From Mesorhizobium sp. M2A.F.Ca.ET.046.03.2.1 (lineage in GTDB: Bacteria; Pseudomonadota; Alphaproteobacteria; Rhizobiales; Rhizobiaceae): a DNA stretch of 64,000 bases. The stretch covers positions 2,418,001 through 2,482,000 of the forward strand of contig NZ_CP034449.1 in the NCBI RefSeq assembly GCF_003952425.1, given 5' to 3'. The notes under the pieces were generated by a model. It was given only the letters and a program-made list of their open reading frames with translations. It made no database searches and was not told where the DNA came from. Of this stretch, positions 47 to 62,795 are shown piece after piece. The stretch's first letter is position 1. Each line of letters begins with the position of its first letter. The translations under genes were made by a program, and so were the position numbers.

Positions 47-346
47 ATGCACTGGAACCCTTCGGACCATGACCGCGTGGTCGCGACCGGCGAGGCGGTG
101 GCTTGTGAATTCGGTGCCGGATTGGCGCTGCTCCACCTCAAATCCAATGTCTATTACAGCCTGAACAGCGTCGGCGCCTTCATCTGGGAGCAGATCCAGG
201 AGCCGCGATCGGTCCTCGATGTCCGCAACGCCGTGCTTGCGCGCTACAATGTCGATGCCGAGCGCTGCAAGGCGGATGTCGAGGGCTTGCTGAAGGGGCT
301 GACCGAAGCAGGGCTTGCGAGGCTCCACAGTGAGGAACTGGTCTAA
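47..346 (+). CDS. Lasso peptide biosynthesis B1 protein (PqqD-like RiPP recognition element)
   Basis: The 99-residue product has the size and pattern of the PqqD fold: an N-terminal beta segment with the LLHLKSNVYYSLN stretch (about residues 27-39), then helices around GAFIWEQI and a C-terminal helix ending EAGLARL. In lasso pathways B1 binds the leader of the precursor and delivers it to the B2 protease. A GAGG at 36-39 lies seven bases before the ATG. The next gene starts after three bases, so B1 and B2 are probably co-translated. The assignment rests on fold pattern plus the neighbouring B2, C, kinase and D genes. Confidence 0.85.
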   Translation: MHWNPSDHDRVVATGEAVACEFGAGLALLHLKSNVYYSLNSVGAFIWEQIQEPRSVLDVRNAVLARYNVDAERCKADVEGLLKGLTEAGLARLHSEELV

Positions 347-451
347 AGCATGTCTCCCGAAAGTGGGGACCGGTTTCGGGATAAAGACATGCGTCAAATC
401 AAAGACCTAAAGCGCATGGAGCGAATCCGAAGGATCGCGACGCGCTTTAGG
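347..451 (+). repeat. Two-hairpin intergenic repeat (inverted copy) overlapping the start of B2
   Basis: On the minus strand this reads as an AAAGCGCGTCGCG...GCGCTTTA palindrome, the linker GGTCTTTGATTTGACGC, then a GCATGTC...GACATGC palindrome. It clearly aligns with the element at 41704-41806 (shared linker, shared AACCG...CACTT centre and matching arms). The B2 reading frame runs through it without a stop, so the repeat supplies the only ATG codons near the 5' end of B2 (350, 389 and 416). Confidence 0.8.
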
Positions 452-850
452 ATCCGCTCGCTGAGCGGCCGGGAGATGCTTTTTCTCGCGCACTGCCTGG
501 CGGTGGTGAGCGTGGTGCGGCTCGCGCTGACGCTTTCCTCCTACAACCGCGTCCGTGGCCTGATCACGCGGCTTGATGCGAGGCGCGATGCCGGCATCGC
601 CGACCTGCGGCGCGTCGCCTGGGGCGTTGCCGCCGCCGCGCGGCTGGTGCCGGGCGCCAGTTGCCTCACCCAGGCGCTGGCCGGGCAATATCTGCTCGCA
701 CGCCAGGGCAACGCCTCGAAGATCAGCATCGGCATCGAAAGGGGGACAGGCAGCGAACTCAGGGCGCATGCCTGGTTGATGAGCGGCAACCACATCGTGC
801 TTGGCGGCTCGATCAACGGATTTACCCACCTTGTCGACCATGGGTGTTGA
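350..850 (+). CDS. Lasso peptide biosynthesis B2 protein (transglutaminase-like leader protease)
   Basis: Residues from about 38 onward match the lasso B2 cysteine protease family: a hydrophobic helix (MLFLAHCLAVVSVVRLAL), the catalytic Cys in PGASCLTQAL (about residue 105), a KISIGIERG strand and the catalytic His in LRAHAWL. It should cut the leader from the precursor. The first ~34 residues are Arg/Lys-rich and are encoded by an intergenic repeat, so they are not ancestral B2 sequence. The start is uncertain: ATG at 350, 389 and 416 are all in frame and none has a good ribosome-binding site (the nearest GAGG is 332-335). The gene ends three bases before C. Confidence 0.85.
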   Translation: MSPESGDRFRDKDMRQIKDLKRMERIRRIATRFRIRSLSGREMLFLAHCLAVVSVVRLALTLSSYNRVRGLITRLDARRDAGIADLRRVAWGVAAAARLVPGASCLTQALAGQYLLARQGNASKISIGIERGTGSELRAHAWLMSGNHIVLGGSINGFTHLVDHGC

Positions 851-853
851 CCG

Positions 854-2767
854 ATGAGCGGCGTGGCCGGCATCATGCATATCGACAACGGCAGGCCCGC
901 CGCGGCCAGCGACATCCAGCAGATGCTTTCGCGCATGCGCCATCGTGCCCGCGACGGCAGCTCATGGCGGACGGAGGGCAGCGTGGCGCTCGGCCACGCC
1001 TGGCTCGACACGACCGGCGAGGACGGGCCCGGTCCGCTGGCGATGGCCGGCGGCAAGCTCGCCATCACCGCCGATTGCCGGCTGGACAATCGCGACGAGC
1101 TGCTGGCGCGGCTAGGCCTAAGCGACCGGTCGATTGCCGACGCGATGCTCATCATGCACGCCTACCTGAAATGGGGCGAGGCCTGTCCGACCTACCTGCT
1201 AGGCGACTTCGCCTTCGCGATATGGGACCGCGAGCGCCAGGCCCTGTTTTGCGCGCGCGACCATTTCGGCGTCAAACCCTTCTACTATCATTCGACCGCA
1301 AGGCGCTTTGCTTTCGCCTCCGAGATCGGGCCCATCCTGGCGCTGGACGGCGTCGGCAGGCGCCTCAGCGAGCACCAGATTTCCGGCTTTCTCGCCGGCC
1401 TGCCGGACGATTCCCAGGCCACGCCCTACGCCGAAATCTTCCGCTTGCCGGAGCGACACAGCATGATGGTGGCGGGCCACGGGATTGCGCTGCGGCGCTA
1501 CTGGCAGATCGAGCCGTCACAGCGGCCGCCGCGCGCTCACGCGGCCGAAGAATTCAGGCATCTCTTCGCGCAGTCGGTGGAGAACCGGATGCGTGGCACG
1601 TCGGCTGTCGGCGCCATGCTGAGCGGCGGCCTCGATTCATCCTCGATCACATGCCTTGCAAGCCTCAGGGCAGCGGCGACAGGCAACCCGAAGCTCAAGA
1701 CCTTCTCGCTGGTGTTCGACAAGGGCTCCTCCATGGACGAGAAGCCGTTCATCGATGCGGTGCTCGACGGCAATCCGCTCGACGCCGCGCTGATTGCCGT
1801 CGGCCATTACGCACCCTTCGCCGAGTTCGAGCGCATCCTGGAGGAGCAGGAAGGCACGTTCCTGGCGCCCGGCCTGTCCTTGACGCGCGACCTTTACCGG
1901 ACGGCGGGCGCAAAGGGCGTCAAGGTGCTGCTCGACGGACACGGCGGCGACGAGGTCGTCTCGCAGGGCCACGGACACCTTCACGAGCTCGCCAATGCCG
2001 GCAGATGGCTGAAGCTTTGGCGCGAGTTGCGCAGCGCGGCCAACACCTATGGCGACGGCATGCTTCCCCTCTATTTCAAGTTCCTGACCATCTATGGGCC
2101 GGCCTGGCGAATCGCCAGGATGAGGGCGGCGGCCAAACGCCTTGTCCGCAAAGTGCGGCGCGGGCCGGCGCAGGCGCCACGCGCCGCCTGGGCGGGTCTG
2201 GTCAATCCGGATCTTGCCGGGCGCACCGATCTTACCGAGCGCTTTCATCGCAGCGGCTACATGCCCGCCGCCGTCAGCGCCAGCGAAGCGCTGACGCATC
2301 GCTGGCTTCTGTCGACCGGGCTGGTGCCGCACGCTTTCGAAGTGCTCGACAAGGCCGCCGCCAATTTCGGCGTCGAGCCGCGCTATCCGTTCTGGGACAA
2401 GCCGCTCGTCGAATTCTGCCTGGCGCTGCCCGGCGAGGAAAAGCTCAAGGACGGTTTTGGCCGCCATGTGCTGCGCCGGGCCATGCAAGGCGTTCTGCCG
2501 CCGGCCGTGCAATGGCGGCGCGACAAGATCGATTTCACCGCCAACCTGGTCAATGGCATGCTCGGCAATCACCGCGAGCTTCTGGACAGGCTGCTTATAT
2601 CGGACAGCGAGCGGATCGCGCCCTATGTGAACCTGCCTGCAGTGGCCGCGGTCTATGACCGGATGCTGCGCCAGCCCGAGCAGGCGACCCTGCCGGACGT
2701 GCAGCATGTCTGGCGCGCGGTTTCGCTGTCGCTGTGGCTGCGGCAAGTTGAGGGAAACCCCGCATGA
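854..2767 (+). CDS. Lasso peptide cyclase C (asparagine synthetase-like macrolactam synthetase)
   Basis: The 637-residue protein has an N-terminal class II glutamine amidotransferase-like domain (residues 1 to about 200, starting MSGVAGIMHI) and a C-terminal ATP-pyrophosphatase domain with the PP-loop MLSGGLDSSS at about residue 255. In lasso pathways this enzyme adenylates the Asp/Glu side chain and joins it to the new N-terminus. The catalytic Cys2 of true glutamine-hydrolysing enzymes is Ser here, which fits a cyclase that needs no ammonia. The TGA overlaps the kinase start by four bases, indicating translational coupling. Confidence 0.9.
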   Translation: MSGVAGIMHIDNGRPAAASDIQQMLSRMRHRARDGSSWRTEGSVALGHAWLDTTGEDGPGPLAMAGGKLAITADCRLDNRDELLARLGLSDRSIADAMLIMHAYLKWGEACPTYLLGDFAFAIWDRERQALFCARDHFGVKPFYYHSTARRFAFASEIGPILALDGVGRRLSEHQISGFLAGLPDDSQATPYAEIFRLPERHSMMVAGHGIALRRYWQIEPSQRPPRAHAAEEFRHLFAQSVENRMRGTSAVGAMLSGGLDSSSITCLASLRAAATGNPKLKTFSLVFDKGSSMDEKPFIDAVLDGNPLDAALIAVGHYAPFAEFERILEEQEGTFLAPGLSLTRDLYRTAGAKGVKVLLDGHGGDEVVSQGHGHLHELANAGRWLKLWRELRSAANTYGDGMLPLYFKFLTIYGPAWRIARMRAAAKRLVRKVRRGPAQAPRAAWAGLVNPDLAGRTDLTERFHRSGYMPAAVSASEALTHRWLLSTGLVPHAFEVLDKAAANFGVEPRYPFWDKPLVEFCLALPGEEKLKDGFGRHVLRRAMQGVLPPAVQWRRDKIDFTANLVNGMLGNHRELLDRLLISDSERIAPYVNLPAVAAVYDRMLRQPEQATLPDVQHVWRAVSLSLWLRQVEGNPA

Positions 2768-3735
2768 ACCTTCCGATCGCTTCCCTTGCGCGATCCGAGC
2801 CGCAAACGGCGGCGGCGAGCGGACGTGTCCGCCGTTTCTACAAGGCCTACGGGCTGGTGATCGGCTCCGAAGTGACCTTGCCGGAGCTGGAGCCGACGCG
2901 CCCGGCGACACCGGATCTGGAGATCGCGGTGGGGCGGGTCGATTTTCCCGGCCAGGCATCCCGGGACGCCACCGCCTTCCGGTTCGAGCCGACGCGCCAG
3001 TATCTTTCCTGGCAGGCGGTCGGCACGTTCTTGATCAGCGGCAACCGCATCGATGTCGATCCCGCGCCAGGGGTCGACGATCCGCTGCTCGCCTTTCCGC
3101 TGCTCGGGCCGGTGATGGCGCTCGCCCTGCATCAGCGCGGGCTGCTCGTCCTGCATGCCAGCGCCATTGAAGTCGACGGCAAGAGCGTGATCTTCATGGG
3201 CGACAAGGGCGCCGGCAAATCGACCACGGCAGGCGCGATGATCCGCGCCGGCCATCGACTGCTCACCGACGATGTCGTGGCGCTGGATTTGTCCGACCCG
3301 GACCGGCCGATGATCCTGCCCGGATTCCCGCAGCTCAAGCTTGCGGCGGACGCGGCCGGCGCCATTCGCCTCGAGCAGGCGGAGGTGCGCCCGCAGGTGC
3401 ATCCGCAGATCGACAAGGCGCAGCATCGGCTGCGTGACGGATTTGCGGTCGAAGCGGTGCCGGTGTCGCGCATCTATGTGCTCGAGCGGGGCGTGCGGGC
3501 GGCTATCTCCCCGCTGTCCGGCGCAGCCGCGCTGCCGGCGATCATCAAATTCTCGTATATCACGCGGTTCGGCCGGCAGGCGCTGCCGGGCGATTTCGCC
3601 TCGATGCATCTCAGCCAATGCGCACAGATCGCCGGACGGGTCGGCGTCAGCCGACTGGAAGTGCCGGCCGGACTCGACCGGATCGACGAAGCGGTCGCCG
3701 CGATCGATACCGACTTGGCGTCCGGGACAAGGTGA
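2764..3735 (+). CDS. HPr kinase-like protein of the lasso cluster (putative peptide-tailoring kinase)
   Basis: The 323-residue product contains a P-loop GDKGAGKST (about residues 146-154) after LVLHASAIEVDGKSVIFMG and a following LLTDDVVALD segment, as in HprK-related kinases. In some lasso clusters (for example the paeninodin type) such kinases phosphorylate the C-terminal residue of the precursor; that role here is inferred from context. It lacks the N-terminal domain of genuine HprK and no PTS gene is nearby. The ATG overlaps the stop of C (ATGA), and the exporter gene follows after eight bases. Confidence 0.8.
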   Translation: MNLPIASLARSEPQTAAASGRVRRFYKAYGLVIGSEVTLPELEPTRPATPDLEIAVGRVDFPGQASRDATAFRFEPTRQYLSWQAVGTFLISGNRIDVDPAPGVDDPLLAFPLLGPVMALALHQRGLLVLHASAIEVDGKSVIFMGDKGAGKSTTAGAMIRAGHRLLTDDVVALDLSDPDRPMILPGFPQLKLAADAAGAIRLEQAEVRPQVHPQIDKAQHRLRDGFAVEAVPVSRIYVLERGVRAAISPLSGAAALPAIIKFSYITRFGRQALPGDFASMHLSQCAQIAGRVGVSRLEVPAGLDRIDEAVAAIDTDLASGTR

Positions 3736-3743
3736 GCCGGGAC

Positions 3744-5639
3744 ATGAGCTGGTCCTCGAAGCTTCGCCTGTCGCTGTTGCGGGACATCACCGGCTTCGGC
3801 GCCATGATGGCGCATGTCGGCGGGCGACGCACCGCGACGGCGCTGACCTTCCTGATCCTGGGCAGCCTCACCGAAGGCATCTCGATCCTGCTGCTCGTCC
3901 CGCTGCTGCGCCTGATCGGCAGGGCCGAACAGGATTACGCAGTTCGACTGCCGGAAGCCTTGCATTGGCTGGTGCCCGGCGGAACGCTGTCGCTGGCCAC
4001 CGTGCTCTGCCTGCTTGTCGCGCTGGTGGCGCTGCAGGCGATTTTCAACCGCTTCAAGTCGGTCTACATGGCGCGGCTGCTCTACGATTTCGTCAACCGC
4101 GTGCGCATGAACCTGTTCGAAAGCATCGGCCGGGCGCGCTGGGGTGTTTTCACCCGCATCCGCAGCTCCGATCTCGACCACGCACTGAACGGCGACGTCG
4201 ACCGCGTGCAGGTAGCCGCCTTCTCGCTGCTGATGCTCACGCAGGCGACATTGCTCCTGACCGGCTATCTCGTGGTCTCGCTGTTCATCTCGCCGGTGAT
4301 GACGTCCTTCGCCATCCTCATCGGCCTGGTGCTGCTGGTTGCGCTGCAGCCGTTCCGGGCACGCGCCAGCGCCTATGGCCGCACGCTGACCGGCAACCGC
4401 CAGGACCAGTATCGCACGGTCTCCGAGTTTCTCGGCGGCATCAAGGTCGCCAAGAGCCTCAATGTCGAGGCGAGCTATTTCGCCGAGCTCGGCGCGACGC
4501 TGGACAGGATGAAGGCCGACAACATCACCTTTGTCCGCAACTCTTCACTCGGCACCGCCCTGTTCCAGATGGCGAGCGTGATCGGGCTCAGCCTCTTCAT
4601 CTACATCGCGCTGGTCCGCTTCCACCTTTCGCTTGCCGAGATCGTCGTGCTGCTCCTGGTCTTCATGCGGGTCGCGCCGCGCTTCATGGACATGCAGCTT
4701 CAAACCCAGCAGGTGCTGATCAACCTGCCGGCCTACGCTTCGATGCAAGCCCTTCAGGCCCGCTTCGACGCCGAGCGCGAGCCGACCCAAGGCGTGGCCG
4801 AACGAGGCGCGAGACTGTCGCTCGAGACCGGCCTCAACATCCGCGAGGTATCGTTCGCCTATGGCGAGGGTGACGCAAGACCGGTGGTCAGCGATATCAC
4901 CTTCGATCTGCCTGCCGGCAAGGTGACGGCGCTGATCGGCCCTTCCGGTTCCGGCAAGAGCACGATCGCCGACATGCTGCTCGGCCTGCTCGAACCCACC
5001 AGCGGCCGGATCCTGGCCGACGGCGTGGAAATCACCGCGCAGAATCGCAGGGCGTGGCGCGATCAGGTTGCCTATGTACCGCAGGATGTGTTCCTGCTGC
5101 ATGACACGATCGCCGCCAATCTTCGTCTTGCCGCGCCTGGGGTCAGCGACGAGGAGCTATGGGCGGCCCTGCGCAACGCCCATGCGGCCGATTTCGTGGA
5201 ACGGCTGGCATCGCGGCTCGATACGGTGGTGGGCGACCGCGGTGTCCGGCTCTCCGGCGGCGAGCGGCAGCGCATCGCCTTGGCGCGGGCGCTGCTGCGC
5301 AAGCCGTCGCTGCTCATCCTCGACGAGGCGACGAGCGCGCTCGACTGGCAGAACCAGTCGCTGATCGCGCAATCGATCGAGGCTTTGCGCGGCCGGATGA
5401 CGATTTTGACCATCGCGCATCGGCCGTCGATGATCGCCTTCGCCGACTGGGTCGTGGCCATCGAGAACGGGCGCATCGTCGAGGTCGGACAATACCGGCG
5501 GCTGAAGGCAAAAGCCGGCAGCCGGCTGGCCAGGATGCTGTCGGGCGAGCAGGCCGAGCGCGACAGCGCGCCCCCGGCCGAGGCCGGATTGGTCCCGGCG
5601 CCGTTCGAACGGTCAGTGGAGGCTGCGTCTGGCGCTTAG
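3744..5639 (+). CDS. ABC exporter of the lasso cluster (D protein, fused TMD-NBD)
   Basis: The 631-residue protein has about six membrane segments in the first 300 residues and an ATPase domain with Walker A GPSGSGKST (about residue 398), signature LSGGERQRIALARAL, Walker B LLILDEATSALD and an H-loop in TIAHRPS. This is the layout of lasso D exporters, which secrete the peptide and give self-immunity. No peptidase C39 domain is present. ATG 3744 is preceded by AAGGTGA at 3728-3734; a GTG at 3732, overlapping the kinase stop, is an alternative. The 3' end overlaps the convergent exoX-like gene by 27 bases. Confidence 0.88.
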   Translation: MSWSSKLRLSLLRDITGFGAMMAHVGGRRTATALTFLILGSLTEGISILLLVPLLRLIGRAEQDYAVRLPEALHWLVPGGTLSLATVLCLLVALVALQAIFNRFKSVYMARLLYDFVNRVRMNLFESIGRARWGVFTRIRSSDLDHALNGDVDRVQVAAFSLLMLTQATLLLTGYLVVSLFISPVMTSFAILIGLVLLVALQPFRARASAYGRTLTGNRQDQYRTVSEFLGGIKVAKSLNVEASYFAELGATLDRMKADNITFVRNSSLGTALFQMASVIGLSLFIYIALVRFHLSLAEIVVLLLVFMRVAPRFMDMQLQTQQVLINLPAYASMQALQARFDAEREPTQGVAERGARLSLETGLNIREVSFAYGEGDARPVVSDITFDLPAGKVTALIGPSGSGKSTIADMLLGLLEPTSGRILADGVEITAQNRRAWRDQVAYVPQDVFLLHDTIAANLRLAAPGVSDEELWAALRNAHAADFVERLASRLDTVVGDRGVRLSGGERQRIALARALLRKPSLLILDEATSALDWQNQSLIAQSIEALRGRMTILTIAHRPSMIAFADWVVAIENGRIVEVGQYRRLKAKAGSRLARMLSGEQAERDSAPPAEAGLVPAPFERSVEAASGA

Positions 5640-41703: not shown

Positions 41704-41806
41704 CTAAAGCGCGTCGCGCTGAACCGGATTCAGGCGACGCGCTTTAAGTCTTTGTTTTGATGCATGTCGTTGTCCCAGAACCGCTCACACTTCTGGGCGA
41801 CATGCA
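41704..41806. repeat. Two-hairpin intergenic repeat
   Basis: The first hairpin is AAAGCGCGTCGCG...CGACGCGCTTT, the linker AAGTCTTTGTTTTGATGC, and the second hairpin GCATGTCGTTGTCCCAGAA...TTCTGGGCGACATGC. It lies between the convergent hydrolase and DUF2161 genes, where it may also end transcription in both directions. The copy at 347-451 is homologous but reversed, and the 62680-62777 element has the same plan with diverged arms. Confidence 0.8.
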
Positions 41807-42466
41807 TTATAGCGCCGCCGGCAGCGGCCCAATCGCTGCGAGGCCGGCTTCGGTCAGCGCGTAGATGCCGCGCTCGGCGCGGGCGAACCAGCCATAGTAA
41901 TTGTGCTGCAAGATGCTTGCGGCGCGTGGCGAAAGCGTCTTCAGGTCGCGCGGCCGTTTCGGGCCATTGGCCATGGCGGCGGCGCAGGCGAGCGCCTCCT
42001 GCCGATATGCGGTCATGATCGGCTTCTTGCGCGTGCTGCCGCCGATGGATGGGTCGCCCTTGCGGCGATGATGCTCCTCAACCAAGCGCGAGCGCCGCCG
42101 TGGATCGCGTCGCGGCGGCAGGGCGGCGGGACTGAGGATCAACTCCACCTCGCCCCTGGCGCTGACGCCAAGCAGGCCGAAGCCGAGGCGACGACAAAGC
42201 GCGCGGAAGCGCCGGTCGTGCTCCCGGCCCTTGCCGCGCGCCGACATCAAGGCGGCGAGCCACACCTCGTCACAGGCCGCCGCGCGGTCGACGGCTTGCA
42301 GGACGAGCTCGAGGTTGAATTGCAGCTTGAGCTCGCAGATGACGACGACCGGCGGCTCGCCGGCGCGCACGCCGACCACGTCGCAGCCGCCAACCTCGCC
42401 CTTGACGGCGAAATCCATGCTCTCGAGGAACCGCTTCACCGGCTCGTAGAGGGAGGTTTCCTGCAT
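41807..42466 (-). CDS. DUF2161 protein (predicted PD-(D/E)XK-type fold)
   Basis: The 219-residue product shows the DUF2161 pattern: an N-terminal SLYEPVKRFLESMDFAVKGEVGGCDVVGV, then PPVVVICELKLQFNLELVLQAVDRAAACDEVWLA, whose D...ELK arrangement resembles a PD-(D/E)XK nuclease core, and a C-terminal winged-helix-like region (SPRAASILQHNYYGWFARAERGIYALTEAGLAAI). The cellular role is not known. It stands alone between a repeat and the L-fuconate dehydratase gene. Confidence 0.82.
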   Translation of the reverse strand: MQETSLYEPVKRFLESMDFAVKGEVGGCDVVGVRAGEPPVVVICELKLQFNLELVLQAVDRAAACDEVWLAALMSARGKGREHDRRFRALCRRLGFGLLGVSARGEVELILSPAALPPRRDPRRRSRLVEEHHRRKGDPSIGGSTRKKPIMTAYRQEALACAAAMANGPKRPRDLKTLSPRAASILQHNYYGWFARAERGIYALTEAGLAAIGPLPAAL

Positions 42467-61568: not shown

Positions 61569-62681
61569 ATGCAAAGCGCCTGTCTTGTCTTTGTCGGCAG
61601 CCTCAACCGCGAGGCGCCCTATTTCCAGGGCGCGCGCGGCGTCGGCCTCGGCGTCTACGCCTTCGACGAGGCAACGCTTGCCGTTCAAAAACTTGCCGAG
61701 ACCAATGAGGTCGACAATCCGACCTTCCTGTCGGTGACGCCGGACGGGACGCTGATCTATGCCAATTCGGAAGTCTTCGCCTGGCGCGAGGGAACGGTCA
61801 CGGCCTATCGCTTCGACCGCGCCACCAACTCGCTCGCCTATATCAACAAGCAGCCATCGCTTGGCAGCATCACCGCCCACAACACGATCACCCGCGACGG
61901 CAGCAAGCTTCTGGTCGCGAATTACGGCATGGGCAGCGGCGGCCCCGACAAGGCGGTCGCCGTGTTCGGCTTTACGGCCGATGGCGGCCTGACGGCGCCG
62001 CTGGCGAGCGTCGCGCATTCCGGCACCGGCCCCAATGCAGAGCGGCAGGAGCGCTCGCATGCGCACAGCGTCACCGAGACCATCCAGGGCGGCGTCGCCA
62101 TCGTCGCCGATCTCGGCATCGACCAGCTGATCTCCTACCGGATCGAGCCGGACGGCGCGCTGGTGAAGCTCGCGTCGTCGGCGCTCGCGCTCGGCGCCGG
62201 GCCGCGCCATGTCGCGCTGCATCCGAACGGCCGCTTCGTCTTCGTCATGAACGAGCTCAACTCGACTGTAATGTCGCTGGCGCTCGAGCCGTCTTCCGGC
62301 AGGCTTGAACTCATCGACACCAAGCCGGCGGTTCCCGGAGAGGCTCGCGCGCACAACCACTGCGCCGACATCCAGATTTCGCCCGACGGCCGTTTCCTCT
62401 ACGGCTCCAACCGCGGCCATGACAGCGTCGCGATCTTCGCCGTCGATCAGCAGACGGGAAAACTCGAAACGGTGGACTTCACGCCATGCGGCGGCGCGAC
62501 GCCGCGCAACCTGGCGCTGACGCCATCCGGCAGGCATCTGTTCTCAGCCAACCAGAACGCCGACCGCATCTCGATCTTCGCCCGCGACGAGGCGAGCGGG
62601 CGGCTGACCGACACCGGGCAGGCCATCGAGATCGGAACGCCGATGTGCGTGCGGATCACGCGCGACCCGGTTCAATTCTAG
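61569..62681 (+). CDS. Lactonase family protein (7-bladed beta-propeller, PGL-like)
   Basis: The 370-residue protein has the beta-propeller lactonase pattern of repeated blades: NPTFLSVTPDGTLIYA, AHNTITRDGSKLLVANYG, GPRHVALHPNGRFVFVMNEL, ADIQISPDGRFLYGSNRGHDSVAIF and TPRNLALTPSGRHLFSANQNADRISIF. It is the cytoplasmic 6-phosphogluconolactonase-like (PF10282-type) group and probably opens a sugar lactone. GGAGGA at 61558-61563 precedes the ATG. It is divergent from the CoA-transferase/importer operon, with which it may share a substrate. Confidence 0.86.
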   Translation: MQSACLVFVGSLNREAPYFQGARGVGLGVYAFDEATLAVQKLAETNEVDNPTFLSVTPDGTLIYANSEVFAWREGTVTAYRFDRATNSLAYINKQPSLGSITAHNTITRDGSKLLVANYGMGSGGPDKAVAVFGFTADGGLTAPLASVAHSGTGPNAERQERSHAHSVTETIQGGVAIVADLGIDQLISYRIEPDGALVKLASSALALGAGPRHVALHPNGRFVFVMNELNSTVMSLALEPSSGRLELIDTKPAVPGEARAHNHCADIQISPDGRFLYGSNRGHDSVAIFAVDQQTGKLETVDFTPCGGATPRNLALTPSGRHLFSANQNADRISIFARDEASGRLTDTGQAIEIGTPMCVRITRDPVQF

Positions 62682-62777
62682 AGCGCTTCACCGTTTCACG
62701 GAAACGGCGAACCGCTCTATCTCCTTGTTTTTACGCAATTCCGGACGGAAAACCGCTCACACTTTTCCTGGAATTGC
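62680..62777. repeat. Two-hairpin intergenic repeat, probable bidirectional terminator
   Basis: First hairpin: AGAGCG...CGCTCT (62680-62718) with an inner CCGTTTC-ACG-GAAACGG (62691-62707). Linker CTCCTTGTTTTTACGC. Second hairpin: GCAATTCC (62735-62742) with GGAATTGC (62770-62777). The plan is the same as 41704-41806. It lies between the convergent lactonase and lipoprotein genes. Confidence 0.75.
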
Positions 62778-62795
62778 TCTAACGGCTGGCGTTGC

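Follow-up and report, generated by a model that had tools for sequence, protein, structure and literature searches.

How does a gene of a biosynthetic operon come to begin inside what looks like a mobile intergenic repeat? The question was raised by an earlier note on a 64,000-nucleotide stretch of DNA (hereafter the window; G000:C1:2418001-2482000, within a single-contig 7.37-Mb Mesorhizobium genome), in which a repeat was proposed to have taken the place of the original start of a lasso peptidase B2 gene. Our answer is that a palindromic repeat very probably inserted into the CTAG at the stop codon of the upstream gene, B1, and now supplies the start of B2, at a site that has been hit recurrently.

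A lasso operon with a repeat between B1 and B2

The lasso-peptide operon occupies the very first bases of the window and comprises B1, B2, C, an HprK-like gene and an ABC transporter. The PqqD-like B1 gene, the upstream neighbour of B2 (47..346, forward strand, in a frame open from base 2), was recognised by Pfam PF05402 (67.4 bits); the NCBIfam lasso_PqqD models match it as well, but below their cut-offs. The B2 open frame (350..850, forward strand) encodes a transglutaminase-like peptidase (PF13471, 74.5 bits) and passes the curated lasso B2 protease model NF033537 with 63.4 bits against a cut-off of 33. It is followed by the asparagine synthase-like lasso cyclase gene C (854..2767, forward strand; NF033535, 773 bits), the HprK-like gene (2764-3735) and the ABC transporter (3735-5639). 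An open frame judged by eye to be precursor-like lies directly upstream of the window (L001:778-942). Residues C105 and H140 of B2, which we take to be the catalytic Cys and His, are invariant in 29 aligned sequences, and the conserved core common to relatives without the repeat covers 452..847 (forward strand). No relative of B2 was found in the PDB at E<=1. An AlphaFold2 model of the G000 protein draws the N-terminal tail as a helix (residues 4-36, block pLDDT 57-77), with the five models disagreeing (mean pLDDT 76.5 to 43.3), and was kept out of the evidence.

The repeat belongs to a dispersed family that we call A. Its exact limits at this junction, set by relatives that lack it together with the alignment of copies, run on the forward strand from the TA at 344-345 to a duplicate TA at 448-449 (344..449), a few bases outside those first proposed. 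The likeness, in reverse orientation, to a second element of the window proved real: positions 344-450 align with 41809-41704, reversed, over 107 bp at 77.6% identity (E 9e-19), with a local score of 94, where 300 mononucleotide shuffles reached at most 26. That second copy (41704..41809, minus strand) had been called plainly non-coding, a description that does not extend to its terminal TA, which is included in the TAA that ends the minus-strand open frame 41807-42466, as at the lasso locus. In G000, 40 of 95 candidate copies were scored, all of them at 85-100% identity and spanning at least positions 3-105 of the 107. Family A is present at full length in G000, G047, G058 and G085, with 40-42 matches in each of the three besides G000. 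Being short (107 bp), dispersed and devoid of a transposase gene, it fits the description of a MITE. The frame opened by the repeat's ATG runs to the end of the repeat in only 5 of the 40 copies, so membership of the family does not by itself explain the open frame seen at the lasso locus.

The empty site and the rebuilt junction

Relatives close to G000 read GAACTGGTCTAGGCTCCGCTCGCTG at this site, where G000, G058 and G085 have 104 bp extra, a net insertion made up of a 102 bp repeat and a second TA. Comparison of the exact empty site, GTC-TA-G, in these relatives with the two TAs of G000, G058 and G085 establishes the duplication of a TA target. The three filled genomes form one clade (support 99/92). 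In the empty state, B1 ends in GTC-TAG and B2 starts at a GTG or ATG located 18 nt 5' of the core, overlapping the last 17 nt of B1. In G000, the B1 stop codon (344..346, forward strand) is a TAA combining the target TA with the initial A of the repeat, and the former B2 start, a GTG at 330..332 (forward strand) placed by alignment with the empty relatives, whose B2 reads VRNWSRLRSLSG, is out of frame, as it is in all three genomes carrying this insert in forward orientation. The frame of the old GTG is closed by a TAA at 408..410 (forward strand), 5 nt before the ATG at 416. B2 is now open from the ATG at 350, and B1 and B2 share one frame, parted by the TAA. All of this supports the proposal that a mobile-type repeat, judged by its sequence features, replaced the original B2 start.

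Most of the details expected from the earlier note were borne out as well. The repeat is open in the B2 frame, encodes residues 1-34 of the longest product and offers three candidate starts, the in-frame ATGs at 350, 389 and 416; the statement that it holds all the in-frame ATGs is correct for these three and fails for a further one at 476, downstream of the repeat. The database models of B2 differ in length (166 and 153 aa). Alignment with homologues, the check that the note had suggested, places the beginning of conserved B2 sequence at about 452, in keeping with the claim that recognisable B2 follows base 451 only. Relatives with the same N-terminus and no repeat would have contradicted the proposal; the 48 insert-free junctions of the genus all have a short, different N-terminus. 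The predicted Arg/Lys-rich tail carries 12 K/R against 5-6 D/E in the three genomes, and the hairpin announced over the translation start folds as a strong double hairpin (-49.4 kcal/mol, z -7.5). According to the RNA fold, the first hairpin (348..392, forward strand) holds AUG350 and AUG389 in its stem and the second (407..450, forward strand) contains AUG416.

We therefore propose the following scenario, which is conditional in its later steps. A TA-duplicating palindromic repeat inserted into the CTAG that contains the lasso B1 stop codon. Since insertion preserves the target TA and an A opens the repeat, the stop was remade from TAG to TAA; because B2 formerly began inside the end of B1, it was severed from its old start, leaving the repeat to give both the start codon or codons and the Arg/Lys-rich tail. 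Translation was probably kept by coupling, either by ribosomes that end on B1 and re-initiate in the repeat (TAA-AGC-ATG350, with the B1 stop 3 nt before the new ATG), or by ribosomes that end the GTG330 frame at TAA408-410 and re-initiate there, 5 nt further on, at ATG416; we infer re-initiation from the position of these stops.

One stop codon and several repeat families

The site is not peculiar to family A. B2 was searched for in 146 genomes of the genus and found in 104, and 75 loci of named relatives were added from public genome contigs. One locus (L179, in G040) was dropped, having no usable B2 match; the remaining 178 loci gave 109 distinct junctions, from which the distant L100 and L102-L105 were set aside, also from the tree, leaving 104. 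Of these distinct genus junctions, 48 are empty and 56 filled; every insert begins at the B1 stop codon, and the B2 frame is open in 55 of the 56 filled rows. The inserts represent four repeat families (A-D), one of them, A, in both orientations. The forward A insert is found in the three rows of the G000 clade (99/92), and the reverse A insert in L112, which matches the window copy in reverse at 90.6% over 106 bp; here the new ATG lies 8 nt before the stop of the old frame. The B insert (L059, L064 and L065; 102 bp) keeps the old ATG and is read through from it, the C insert (L063; 79 bp) forms a TGATG stop/start, and D inserts, of 75-159 bp, fill 48 rows. Among inserts with clear ends, only those of family A have the TA plainly intact at both ends; at the 5' end of the C insert the sequence is TG, and the 3' TA is missing from the B inserts, so that the exact target of B and C is taken from their position. 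Dispersed relatives of B gave 30-48 matches in each of six genomes, those of C 39 matches in G136, mostly of about 50 bp or less, and those of D 3-7 matches, mostly partial, in each of ten genomes.

Mapped on a tree that leaves the inserts out, the insert types require at least eight changes (A forward 1, A reverse 1, B 3, C 1, D 2), the second D change arising because L160 is empty inside the D clade. The most economical history has six gains and two reversions, although additional gains, or alleles exchanged between lineages, could also account for the pattern. On this count the stop codon has been hit about six times by four families across the genus. The empty junctions within filled clades, L056 and L160, may represent precise loss or allele replacement, and they indicate that the tail can be lost. 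A further B-like tail occurs in the database protein P0095, which is off the tree. In the M. ciceri group (L067, L069, L070, L080 and L081), the D tail appears in the alignment to be lengthened by in-frame repeats (ALVSR...). In L178 (G017), a frameshifted D insert splits B2 into two frames, as in a decayed gene copy; this row was counted as filled and excluded from the codon tests on D.

We then asked why this stop codon is hit. The B1 stop is part of a CTAG in 48 of the 48 empty rows, in sequence where YTAR occurs about 1.1 times per kb, and a YTAR near the B2 stop exists in only 2 of the 48. Inserts between B2 and C were not found, the gap there measuring -4 to 4 nt in 102 of the 104 rows (the two others could not be parsed). 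The preference is visible genome-wide for family A in G000, where 37 of 40 copies have Y..R flanks around the TA, against 159 of 1398 background TAs (p 8e-32). Furthermore, among 45 family A termini with an open frame of at least 100 codons upstream, the frame that ends on the repeat's TA is the longest in 31, against 6 and 8 (p 1.5e-6). The triplet is a stop codon in 30 of these 31 termini, L210 being the exception; at least one terminus of this kind, with the longest frame ending on the TA, is found in 23 of the 39 other family A copies, and 15 of 20 tested open frames ending on a family A TA (29 were listed) contain Pfam domains. Family B follows a like trend (11 of 20 informative termini and 10 of 20 copies, p 0.055), which is not significant alone; the 5' TA of the family B copy at 62678-62779 of the window (G000:2480678-2480779) ends a 374-codon open frame (L228). 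Insertion into the preferred CTAG would spare B1, and the present-day inserts have nearly all left B2 open. Nevertheless, a YTAR is also present just 5' of B1 in G000 (position 42), and none of the four families gave a match in the 700 nt before B1 in the 104 rows, so that the choice of target is only partly explained. As for family A copies lying within coding frames, a Pfam match was obtained in only 1 of 10 picked open frames, a DUF805 gene (L210:816-1250) in which, ahead of the domain, ATG and GTG are absent and TTG occurs twice, inside the repeat or immediately behind it. On this codon pattern, it may be another gene start changed by a repeat.

Which enzyme moves these repeats? G000 carries three elements of about 1.03-1.05 kb (L239, L240 and L241) with a Pfam DDE_3 transposase, presumably of the IS630/mariner type, and with C-TA-GAGC ends like those of families A and B. 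What the repeats and these elements have in common is the short C-TA-RAGC end, with no long match, and the comparison of G000 transposases revealed no autonomous partner with long shared or identical ends. ISY100, a bacterial member of the IS630/mariner group, is described as duplicating TA (PMC2170065), and a CTAG preference of IS630 is indicated by the title of a work cited there. Thus the repeats resemble IS630/Tc1-mariner elements and their MITEs in TA duplication, in the CTAG-type target and in the ends of the G000 DDE_3 elements, but no partner with identical ends was found here. From these motifs, family A is probably a non-autonomous, MITE-like, TA-duplicating repeat of the IS630/mariner type. 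It is also like the Brucella Bru-RS/Rfam BASRCI27 and rhizobial RIME repeats, Bru-RS and RIME by their descriptions, as a structured intergenic repeat of about 105 bp in Rhizobiales. Family A can be aligned to the BASRCI27 consensus, yet the scores (52.5 bits in the window, 50.5 in L180) stay below the gathering threshold of 59.8. RIMEs come in numbered classes, RIME1 and RIME2. The RIME, or rhizobial intergenic mosaic element, is presented as an element class in PMC2573895, and Brucella IS711 appears, in the account of PMC2266754, to duplicate the TA of a YTAR target.

Probable translation of the tail and its possible role

Is the repeat really read as protein? The D inserts are the most informative in this respect. 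All 47 intact D rows are open from the original start, and the inserts have nine lengths, all multiples of 3, that need at least 11 length changes. Changes by codon position number 113/124/187, and pN/pS is 0.65 (0.51-0.84) in frame against 1.02 (0.76-1.42) and 0.85 (0.63-1.20) in the shifted frames, with overlapping intervals and a bootstrap that ignores relatedness. These figures point to modest in-frame purifying selection on the old D insert, a sign of coding constraint. In the three genomes with the young forward A insert, all three ATGs are kept and no stop has appeared; purifying selection was not seen there, the N:S counts of 4:3, 4:1 and 7:3 representing too few changes.

Translation could instead begin at ATG476, 3' of the repeat, which would reduce the repeat to a mere 5' spacer. 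An in-frame ATG does exist at this position in G000, and some relatives have database entries of 124 aa, which, going by length, is what such a start would give. However, starting at 476 would drop a conserved L-S-G-x-E stretch, and the codon is GTG in G085. Moreover, the first 13 core codons contain no ATG or GTG in 28 of the 47 D rows, and no ATG, GTG or TTG in 16; in these 16, initiation must occur upstream or well inside the core, and the natural interpretation is a start within the insert or ahead of it. We consider a start at 476 very improbable.

A different alternative gives the repeat a regulatory role, in which the B2:B1 ratio depends, by way of coupling, on the double hairpin that covers the start, and the encoded amino acids are incidental. 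The strength of the fold, with AUG350 and AUG389 in the same stem, speaks for it, as does the proximity of stop and start in three of the inserts (TAA-AGC-ATG in A forward, TGATG in C, and the ATG 8 nt before the old stop in A reverse). On the other hand, the D and B inserts retain the old start and are read through in frame, so that a new start is unnecessary, and hairpins of that kind arrive with repeats anyway. Regulation as the main role of the repeat thus seems rather unlikely.

A translated tail need not be a useful one. The junction may simply be a harmless site and B2 indifferent to an N-terminal extension, the tail being translated without a role; this challenges a function of the tail and not the insertion itself. 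The two apparently clean reversions (L056 and L160), tails that are wholly different between families and forward A substitutions free of clear constraint fit such tolerance. The retention of the D tail in 47 rows, its in-frame lengths and the modest selection in frame argue for something more, as does the fact that every tail counted is net positive, although this charge may come from the base composition of the repeats themselves. A tail that is simply tolerated has, in our view, about even chances. A more specific model, built on the sequence comparisons, is tentative and less probable than not: repeats with a YTAR target would land on stop codons and become the translated 5' end of the overlapping next gene, and the B1/B2 overlap would act as a standing source of new N-termini. 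Basic tails would then have been recruited on several occasions, and one of them would have persisted while some 47 distinct lineages diverged, serving B2, for instance, in binding B1 or the leader complex.

Insertion at the B1 stop, with a tail probably read as the N-terminus of B2, can be compared with known coding palindromes. The Rickettsia palindromic elements (RPE; Ogata et al. 2000, 2002), as summarised in the review PMC10969869, are about 150 bp long, form several families, and many lie in frame in protein genes and are translated. The inserts described here are alike in being palindromes that add in-frame segments, which we read from open frames and codon constraint alone. RPEs strike many unrelated genes, whereas at the lasso locus several families have struck a single stop codon within one operon, and a repeat can even provide the start codon. 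The enterobacterial RU repeats (Delihas 2007, PMC2759123) are small mobile repeats of 103-168 bp with open frames fused to genes; they differ from the lasso-locus inserts, and their abstract contains no empty-site comparison, recurrence at one site or codon constraint. QMITEs of Coxiella are described as further coding palindromes. What sets the lasso locus apart from these systems is that several families arrived at the same stop codon, that the stop was rebuilt and that a start codon derives from a repeat. No title among the matches listed dealt with this locus, which is weak evidence of absence, as subscription papers lay mostly outside the scope of the search.

Coding palindromes have so far been scattered oddities, whereas one stop codon here amounts to a replicated natural experiment, with about six insertions, four families, many empty sisters, two apparent reversions, and cases both young and old. 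The steps by which mobile DNA turns into translated protein thereby become directly testable. A rule is also suggested, whereby such an insertion leaves the upstream gene unharmed by restoring its stop codon; since that stop is rebuilt, the downstream gene in tightly packed operons may inherit the repeat as its start.
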